A DNA stretch of 11,927 bases from Planctomycetota bacterium (GTDB lineage: Bacteria > Planctomycetota > UBA1135), in the NCBI GenBank assembly GCA_029243845.1, contig JAQWRF010000127.1, positions 1-11,927 on the forward strand, read 5' to 3'. Of this stretch, positions 7,959-9,804 are shown in pieces. The notes below the pieces were generated by a model. The model had not been told where the DNA came from and ran no database searches. It saw only the letters and a list, made by a program, of their open reading frames with translations. A program made the translations under genes and the position numbers. Position 1 is the stretch's first letter; the number at the start of each line of letters is the position of its first letter.

Positions 7959-7965
7959 AATCAAA

Positions 7966-7998
7966 AGTCACTAGCCTCACGGCTAGTGGCTTTTTTTT
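7966..7998 (+). terminator. Intrinsic terminator of tRNA-Asn
   Basis: AGTCACTAGCC (7966-7976) pairs with GGCTAGTGGCT (7981-7991), including one G-U pair, around the loop TCAC. The stem is followed by eight T residues (7991-7998). It separates the tRNA from the selenoprotein gene, which therefore needs its own promoter. Confidence 0.9.
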
Positions 7999-8067: not shown

Positions 8068-9090
8068 ATGAAAAAACTTCTCACCCTCGCCCTGCTAGTT
8101 GCAGGCTCATCCGCTGCTATAGCTCAAGAAGAGCATGGCGCCAAATGGTACGCCGACTTCGATGAAGCGGCTGCCGTCGCTGCTGAAACTGGCCGTGACA
8201 TGATTGTCGATTTTACCGGCTCAGACTGGTGAAGTTGGTGCACAAAACTGCACGAACGTGTTTTCGTGCACAGTGAATTTTACACTGCAGCCCAGAATGA
8301 TTTTGTTTTGGTTTCACTCGACTTCCCACAAGGAGAAGAGGCCAAGGCGGCTGTGCCAAACCCACAGCGCAACGACGAGTTAATGGCGAAATATGGCGTG
8401 CAGGGCTTCCCCACCGTAATGATTGTCAGTGCTACAGGCGAGGCTTATGGCCAAACAGGCTACAAAGACCTCGACCCTGTGGACTATTTGGCTGATGTTG
8501 CCACCATTCGTGATACCGGCAAAAAAGCACTGGTAGCTGTGCGTGAACTCGAGGCCGAGTTTGCTGATGCAGAAGACAAGGTTGCTGTTGCCGTTCGCGC
8601 CGCTGGCGAACTTAGCAAGATGGAAGCCGGCTCACCAGCAATTGCTGGATATGCTGATATCGTCCGTCAAGGCATTGCACTGACTCAAGAGCCTGCGGTA
8701 AAGATCGATCTTCTTCGAGCTGCCGTTATGGCGACAGGCGCTACTGAAGACGACATTAAACTTATCGCAGATTGGGATCCGAAAAACGAACACGGGTTGA
8801 TGGTGATGGTTGTCATTAGCAAGATGAACTCTTTGGGTTCGATAGAAGACCTGCCTGTCTTTGTGGATCTTGCAGAAAAGCTGCATGCCACGGGCAACGT
8901 CACTGCCGATGAAGATTCACGTTCCATTTACATTACTTGTGCATTCTTTTGTGCCCAATACCTAGATGACGAAGCCAACGCCAAAGTGTGGGCGCAACGC
9001 GCAACTGATTTGGGCGGACTCGACGAGCGCATGCAAGAAGTTGTTGACGGAATTCTTGAAGAAGCTGTCGAGGTAGAGCCTGACTTCTAG
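8068..9090 (+). CDS. Exported thioredoxin-fold selenoprotein (UGA read as selenocysteine, U-x-x-C active site)
   Basis: The ATG at 8068 opens a frame that runs through UGA at 8230-8232 (codon 55) to TAG at 9088-9090, giving 340 aa. Residues 1-19 are a signal peptide (KK, hydrophobic core, cleavage after A17-I-A19), so the product acts in the periplasm. The thioredoxin fold covers about 27-150: DMIVDFTGSDW then U55-S-W-C58, and GFPT with cis-Pro115. Known thioredoxin-family relatives read GSDWC-x-W-C here, so the UGA replaces the nucleophilic cysteine. The frame is unshifted and both halves are needed for the fold, which argues against a decayed gene. Residues 150-340 are acidic, helical and unrecognised. 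No Shine-Dalgarno sequence is seen. A thiol-disulfide reductase or peroxide-reducing role is likely; the substrate is unknown. A called gene starting at GTG 8266 would be an artefact lacking signal and active site. The selAB/selC/selD genes are not in the window. Confidence 0.87.
8230..8270 (+). promoter_or_regulatory. Selenocysteine UGA codon with candidate bacterial SECIS hairpin
   Basis: TGA at 8230-8232 is followed by a perfect 8-bp stem, TGCACGAA (8249-8256) with TTCGTGCA (8263-8270), closing the loop CGTGTT (8257-8262). The loop begins 25 bases after the UGA and has G as its second base. Bacterial SECIS elements are known to sit just 3' of the UGA inside the coding region, with a loop roughly 16-37 bases away and a G among the first loop bases, so this one fits. 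A shift gives an alternative tetraloop CGTG with two bulged U. The stem encodes L-H-E-R-V-F-V-H, where relatives usually show a different K-L-x-x-E-V-F pattern, consistent with RNA-level constraint. Confidence 0.75.
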
Positions 9091-9122: not shown

Positions 9123-9162
9123 AAGGTTAGAGTGGTCATAAAGGCCGCTTTAACCTTTTTTT
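9123..9162 (+). terminator. Intrinsic terminator of the selenoprotein gene
   Basis: AAGGTTA (9123-9129) pairs with TAACCTT (9151-9157), and the stem continues inward through about eight more pairs including G-U (9130-9137 with 9143-9150) to a five-base loop. The 3' arm runs into seven T residues (9156-9162). It ends the selenoprotein transcript and isolates it from the b562-like gene. Confidence 0.88.
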
Positions 9163-9339: not shown

Positions 9340-9804
9340 ATGATAAAACTCTTTTCTACTCTCTTTATTGCTGGCCTAATTGCTGCCGGCTTTACCGTAA
9401 TGACTTTCTCTCAAGACCCTGGTCAAGATTCAGGGCATGAGCATAGCGATTCGCCGCTCGAAGAGATTATGGAGCAAATGAAAGACCACATGCGCGCAGT
9501 GCGCAAGTCTATTCCTGAGGTCGAGCAACACGCCAAGTGCATTAAAGACATTCAAGCAATGCAGCAACTCGCGATTGATGGGCTGCCGTATTGCCCCGAT
9601 TATTCTGGGGAAGCAGGCATTGAAAAAGCTAAATACGAAATTAATTTCAAGCGTCGACTGTTGACTCTAGCCGACACTCTGCTTGAGCTAGAGTTAGCAT
9701 TACACGAAGGCGACATCGAGGCGGCTAACGCACACTATAAGAGTTTGCGTAATGCCAAAGAAAGCTCGCATGAGATATACGATCCTGAAGACGACGACGA
9801 TTAG
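9340..9804 (+). CDS. Cytochrome b562-like exported four-helix-bundle protein
   Basis: A 154-aa protein with a hydrophobic N-terminal signal or anchor (2-23), a His/Asp/Ser-rich linker (25-38) and four predicted helices. It resembles cytochrome b562: PLEEIMEQMKDHMRAVRK aligns with the N-terminal helix and places M44 at the axial Met, and LRNAKESSHEIYDP aligns with the last helix and places H144 at the axial His. Both ligands of non-covalent haem b therefore seem present. Members with these residues are periplasmic electron carriers; others in the family have lost haem. Unusual features are two extra cysteines (C67, C85) that could form a disulfide between helices, and an acidic EDDDD tail. The ATG at 9340 is chosen because the signal begins there; the frame extends back to TTG 9274 without a better start. 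The stop overlaps that of the opposing gene by four bases. Physiological partners are not known. Confidence 0.72.
   Translation: MIKLFSTLFIAGLIAAGFTVMTFSQDPGQDSGHEHSDSPLEEIMEQMKDHMRAVRKSIPEVEQHAKCIKDIQAMQQLAIDGLPYCPDYSGEAGIEKAKYEINFKRRLLTLADTLLELELALHEGDIEAANAHYKSLRNAKESSHEIYDPEDDDD

Follow-up and report, generated by a model that had tools for sequence, protein, structure and literature searches.

A probable exported thioredoxin-fold selenoprotein in a planctomycete and the exchange of selenocysteine and cysteine among its relatives

Contig JAQWRF010000127.1 of a Planctomycetota bacterium (assembly GCA_029243845.1, class UBA1135), analysed here over a stretch of 11,927 nucleotides (the window), carries a 340-codon reading frame that is open except for one UGA, and the question raised by this locus is whether that codon is a stop, an error or a selenocysteine (Sec). 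Our analysis supports Sec at residue 55, and this reading is very likely right; the fuller explanation, that the gene encodes an exported thioredoxin-fold selenoprotein, likely a reductase or repair enzyme, is given a probability of about 0.85. Comparison of sequences establishes the frame, a column shared by Sec and Cys, and a hairpin past the UGA, and with them tRNA-Sec, selB and part of selD in the same genome. The features of the gene are as follows (SECIS, selenocysteine insertion sequence).

8068–9090, plus strand: selenoprotein gene, 340 amino acids if UGA is decoded as Sec; product with a signal-like N-terminus, a thioredoxin domain like that of DsbH and a helical, TPR-like tail
8068–8124, plus strand: probable Sec-type (secretion pathway) signal peptide, MKKLLTLALLVAGSSAAIA (residues 1–19, read by eye)
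8146–8430, plus strand: Thioredoxin_7 domain, PF13899 (residues 27–121; 54.6 bits, cut-off 27)
8230–8232, plus strand: TGA codon 55, read as selenocysteine, at the nucleophile position of U-S-W-C
8239–8241, plus strand: TGC codon 58, the resolving Cys, present in 100% of the 90 aligned rows
8249–8270, plus strand: SECIS-like hairpin, UGCACGAA[CGUGUU]UUCGUGCA, 8 pairs with a 6-base loop at 8257–8262
8476–9060, plus strand: helical TPR-like C-terminal region (residues 137–331), with conserved D237, N240 and G243

The frame runs unshifted from ATG 8068 to TAG 9088–9090, and its sole internal stop is the TGA at codon 55, the first position of the motif GSDW-U-SW-C; this confirms a preliminary description of the window, in which a single frame was seen to be broken only by a UGA at the first position of C-x-x-C. 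The listing of open reading frames (ORFs) under translation table 11 contains, for this gene, only a 274-residue ORF beginning at GTG 8266, and signal peptide and active site would therefore be lost in ordinary gene calling, as had been predicted. A crude estimate from the base composition of the window puts at about 9e-7 the chance that 340 codons in frame contain no more than one stop; the evolutionary evidence for the frame is stronger than this estimate. Frame and TGA are kept in all three members of the genus (G000, the window genome, with G110 and G111, whose proteins are 91% and 75% identical to that of the window). Over the whole gene the ratio of nonsynonymous to synonymous substitution rates (dN/dS) comes to 0.24 in the pair G000/G110 and 0.11 in the pair G000/G111, with the lowest values upstream of the UGA and values also below 1 downstream (0.33 and 0.09 for residues 73–340). 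Residues 20–54 show no nonsynonymous against seven synonymous changes between G000 and G110, and proportions of nonsynonymous (pN) and synonymous (pS) differences of 0.036 and 0.562 between G000 and G111.

A search with the protein gave matches in 137 of the 154 genomes of the class (E 0.001) and in 124 of the 392 genomes of a phylum-wide sample (E 1e-20). Column 55 was read in 97 rows, made up of most full-length matches and some partial ones (G045, G118 and G119 give two rows each): 84 have Cys (TGC 71, TGT 13), 12 have TGA, one has Ser (TCG) and none has Trp, in agreement with the earlier expectation of Cys at this position in homologs. The TGA rows come from 11 genomes of the class, that is, ten besides the window's own (G000, G110, G111, G113, G100, G099, G097, G109, G112, G048 and G049), and from G194, a short, thioredoxin-only relative outside the class. 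Residues G51, S52, W54, Cys58 and P115, and D237 in the tail, are 100% conserved in the 90 aligned rows. Distant or thioredoxin-only loci stand outside the 97: L068 and L069 have Cys at the column, L063 has TGA, L062 does not align, and just one of the two hits in L067 has Cys there. L050, L051 and L052 duplicate G110, G111 and G072; the first two, titled as Planctomycetota metagenome-assembled genomes, are the genes of the genus mates letter for letter and therefore add no evidence.

Variants of the motif were also seen. The Ser-bearing row (L121, from G107) reads DWSQWC and keeps the resolving Cys; L063 (from G064) is a distant thioredoxin-like gene with TDW-UGA-SWC, a further possible selenoprotein; and L145 (G194:C42:1-4000) reads GSDWUGYC, with a 6-pair hairpin bearing an AGUUU loop after the TGA.

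The bacterial SECIS is a hairpin just past the UGA with a GU-bearing loop. A search for such an element in 8230–8275 had been proposed, and a SECIS-like hairpin is present within that segment, 17–38 bases past the UGA, its loop beginning 25 bases past it; the hairpin is identical in the three genus members, and its stem was also picked, on the minus strand, by a terminator scan. At gathering level Rfam finds only tRNA in the window. In the eight other long-form TGA members CGUG begins 19 bases past the UGA, and seven of them have CCUC[CGUGNN]GAGG with at least 4 pairs, the stem of G112 being shorter. A CGUG-loop hairpin occurs in 10 of the 12 TGA rows and in none of the 85 others, a contrast for which the Fisher value is an overstatement, because the rows are related and the motif was picked after the TGA rows had been inspected; with any GU-bearing loop and an energy below −3 kcal/mol, the counts are 11 of 12 and 6 of 85. 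G000 and G111, whose genes are 73.8% identical overall, share 46 identical bases at 8249–8294, a run matched in 34 of 5000 shuffles of codon columns (residues 20–135). Over 8248–8292, a stretch selected after the run had been seen, the two genes use the same codon for 14 of the 15 residues they share; elsewhere they do so for 101 of 213. Covariation across eight distinct rows gives 86% of cells paired and four pairs with changes in both partners, a level that none of 500 shuffles reached; since the rows were aligned to the hairpin manually and every two-sided change depends on a single row (the window's genus supplies three of them and G112 the fourth), the covariation is taken as supporting only.

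The genome of G000 (a 1.80-megabase draft in 391 contigs, 84.8% complete) encodes a tRNA-Sec with anticodon TCA (UCA in RNA; 74.7 bits, gathering 47), SelB (265.9 bits, or 293.6 with an in-frame neighbour; cut-off 242.25) and a fragment of SelD cut by a contig end (194 bits, cut-off 125); tRNA-Sec and selD were sought in this genome only. The preliminary description had taken a lack of selB and selC (tRNA-Sec) as grounds for abandoning the selenoprotein; both are present, and of the four Sec genes that it listed only selA was not found in the draft. Across the class selB and selA are each over cut-off in 139 of the 154 genomes, and selA is detected in both genus mates.

The N-terminus, MKKLLTLALLVAGSSAAIA-Q, has the look of an export signal, and the protein is probably exported. 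Thioredoxin_7 passes its Pfam gathering cut-off, and no NCBIfam model reaches its cut-off for the protein, the best being DsbH (84 of 190 bits). The statement that this was not a described Sec family is consistent with NCBIfam. The thioredoxin domain is closest to DsbH of Chlamydia (NF043050; PDB 2JU5) and has the DsbH-type fold; the gene differs in having Sec for the first Cys and about 200 helical residues past the thioredoxin domain. The C-terminal (gamma) domains of DsbD are among the further matches, but the protein has no membrane domain, and a separate DsbD-like protein is encoded in the genome. The thioredoxin-like part of TsoB (NF045694, a rhodanese/DsbD fusion-like protein and a selenoprotein family by its NCBIfam name) aligns with residues 7–142 at 52.8 bits, far under the cut-off of 805, and no rhodanese or membrane part is matched in Pfam. 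The Trx7/PDZ (NF041199) and VPGUxxT (NF041382 and NF041383) models, named for thioredoxin-like (seleno)proteins, align weakly with the thioredoxin part (18.5, 17.1 and 13.9 bits; cut-offs 300, 350 and 275). The present protein has the motif GSDWUxxC, and its tail gives no match to PDZ. Thioredoxin-fold proteins with Sec as the nucleophile are well known among selenoproteins, and thioredoxin-like UxxC selenoproteins were reportedly found in surveys such as Global Ocean Sampling; the gene is a further member of this already known kind. A structure model places helices over residues 137–331, in line with the added helical region of 190 residues in the preliminary description. The tail also holds a second Cys pair, C291/C295 (CAFFC, window 8938–8952), which all three members of the genus share; among the 90 rows, 32 have Cys at position 295.

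A mechanism can be proposed in which SelB, binding the hairpin at 8249–8270, would bring Sec-tRNA to the UGA at 8230–8232 during translation, after which the protein would be exported. Nucleophilic attack would fall to Sec55 and resolution to Cys58 in reducing or repairing oxidised proteins of the cell envelope; the DsbD-like membrane protein of the same genome may re-reduce the enzyme, and the helical tail may bind substrates or partners. Our best guess, held with modest confidence, is that the protein serves outside the cytoplasm as a disulfide reductase or repair enzyme supplied with electrons by DsbD.

Three features neighbouring the gene were recorded.

7963–7994, plus strand: terminator-like hairpin between tRNA-Asn and the selenoprotein gene (consensus match only)
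9123–9157, plus strand: terminator-like hairpin past the selenoprotein gene (consensus match only)
9340–9804, plus strand: neighbouring gene for a probably exported cytochrome-b562-like protein (PF07361)

The cytochrome-b562-like protein has no NCBIfam match at E 0.01, and relatives of it turn up in the stretches fetched for 7 of the 18 loci compared, the window counted. A gene for an extracytoplasmic function (ECF) sigma factor is the next same-strand ORF in G111, G113, G100, G099 and G097, all Sec forms, where it stands directly 3′ of the Sec thioredoxin gene (L066:1051-1848 in G111; L070, L071, L072 and L073); the sigma domains were confirmed with Pfam for G111, G113 and G100 and assigned by similarity for G099 and G097. 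In G111 it sits between the Sec gene and the cytochrome-b562-like gene. Counted over fetched stretches, the sigma gene is found at 5 of 10 Sec loci versus 1 of 8 Cys loci, an association that favours a real selenoprotein with another main job, for example a peroxidase-like one, partnership in methionine-sulfoxide repair, or redox sensing together with the ECF sigma factor. We consider this rather unlikely, since the window has no sigma gene, the selenoprotein gene is flanked by the two terminator-like hairpins, no sigma gene was seen in the stretches of G109, G048 and G049 (the contig of G110 ends there), and the thioredoxin domain is nearest DsbH, with DsbD gamma domains among its further matches.

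Other explanations concern the UGA itself. The UGA could be a true stop, in a decaying gene or in one from which only the 274-residue part from GTG 8266 is made; table 11 finds that ORF alone, and selA was not found in the draft, but the strong constraint on residues 20–54, upstream of the UGA, and the recurrence of TGA at this column in 11 genomes of the class leave it a very slim chance. Because both genus mates keep the TGA, decay and sequencing error are alike very unlikely. An error of sequencing or assembly for TGC or TGT would restore the usual residue of the family, and the assembly is a draft of 391 contigs; however, both genus mates (91% and 75% identical) have the same TGA, as do eight more genomes of the class, and a base-calling error repeated in ten other genomes is not credible, its probability being practically negligible. 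Plain readthrough or near-cognate suppression (inserting Trp or another residue), or a selenium-dependent switch between short and long products, is highly improbable. Termination at UGA is regulated in selenoprotein genes when selenium is scarce, and this speaks for a switch; against all of these, the column is mostly Cys, a dedicated tRNA-Sec and SelB exist, the hairpin is tied to the TGA state, and TGA terminates other genes of the genome (the window's TraB, and 6 among 34 long open frames from loci L001–L019, some of them overlapping). Genome-wide decoding of TGA as Trp was rejected because TGA ends these genes and Trp occurs in none of the 97 rows.

Several observations weigh against the selenoprotein and the role proposed for it. 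A stem of at least 4 pairs is lacking in G112, and CGUG is lacking in G194. When the 50 bases past the UGA are folded for minimum energy, other pairings are preferred to the hairpin in G000 and G110, and TGA rows separate from others only weakly (mean z −1.17, n = 12, versus −0.55, n = 31). Over-cut-off selA is found in nine of the 11 TGA-form genomes of the class (no match in the 84.8% complete draft of G000, and missing in G109), as is selB (under cut-off in G112 and G049); each of the 11 has at least one of the two, and draft incompleteness is the simplest reading of the gaps. Searches with Thioredoxin_7 and TsoB, the only families searched, gave no second UGA gene in G000, and thus only one selenoprotein is demonstrated for this genome. 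The structure model was built on 4 sequences, with a mean predicted local distance difference test score (pLDDT) of 79, and the substrate, the redox direction and the link to DsbD are inferred.

The history of Sec/Cys exchange was examined with a 90-row tree built without the SECIS columns and omitting seven rows (G194, which is a single thioredoxin domain, and six incomplete rows). It contains a starred set of ten, consisting of nine Sec rows with the Cys-bearing G102 inside, and places G048 and G049 elsewhere; the quick tree requires at least three Sec/Cys changes. Constraining all 11 Sec rows plus G102 to one clade gave a higher likelihood and was not rejected (approximately unbiased test, p-AU 0.612), and the same was true of the nine same-family Sec rows without G102 (p-AU 0.669); one Sec origin with loss in G102 is therefore allowed, and independent Sec origins, which had been considered, were not accepted. 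L060 and L061 (from G048 and G049) represent a Sec form in another family, in which the stretch of active site and SECIS resembles G099 far above the rest of the gene. Over residues 56–72 G048 shares 76% with G099, versus a mean of 35% with the Cys rows (best, G117, 59%), and elsewhere it is on average no nearer to Sec rows than to Cys rows. A tail-only tree groups G048 and G049 with the Cys rows of their own family, and a thioredoxin-only tree gave no resolution; the likeness of G048 to G099 reflects either a cassette that moved or a convergence imposed by the hairpin. With the position of CGUG the encoded residues shift too, Arg lying two codons further on in the window's genus. We tentatively suggest, as a doubtful but possible course of events, that the Sec signal was moved or re-invented within the family, by a SECIS that slid two codons while Sec was kept or by a second gain of Sec, and that a Sec-plus-SECIS cassette may move (G048 and G049).

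The locus adds a Sec/Cys family that automatic annotation would truncate to the tail, without signal peptide and active site, and it draws attention to a class of Planctomycetota whose genomes nearly all carry selA. Its relatives with Cys, Sec and Ser, and with SECIS-like hairpins in two registers, form a series for the study of the swap between sulfur and selenium; if the Sec signal did move or arise anew within it, the family would be a natural series in which to watch Cys and Sec being exchanged.
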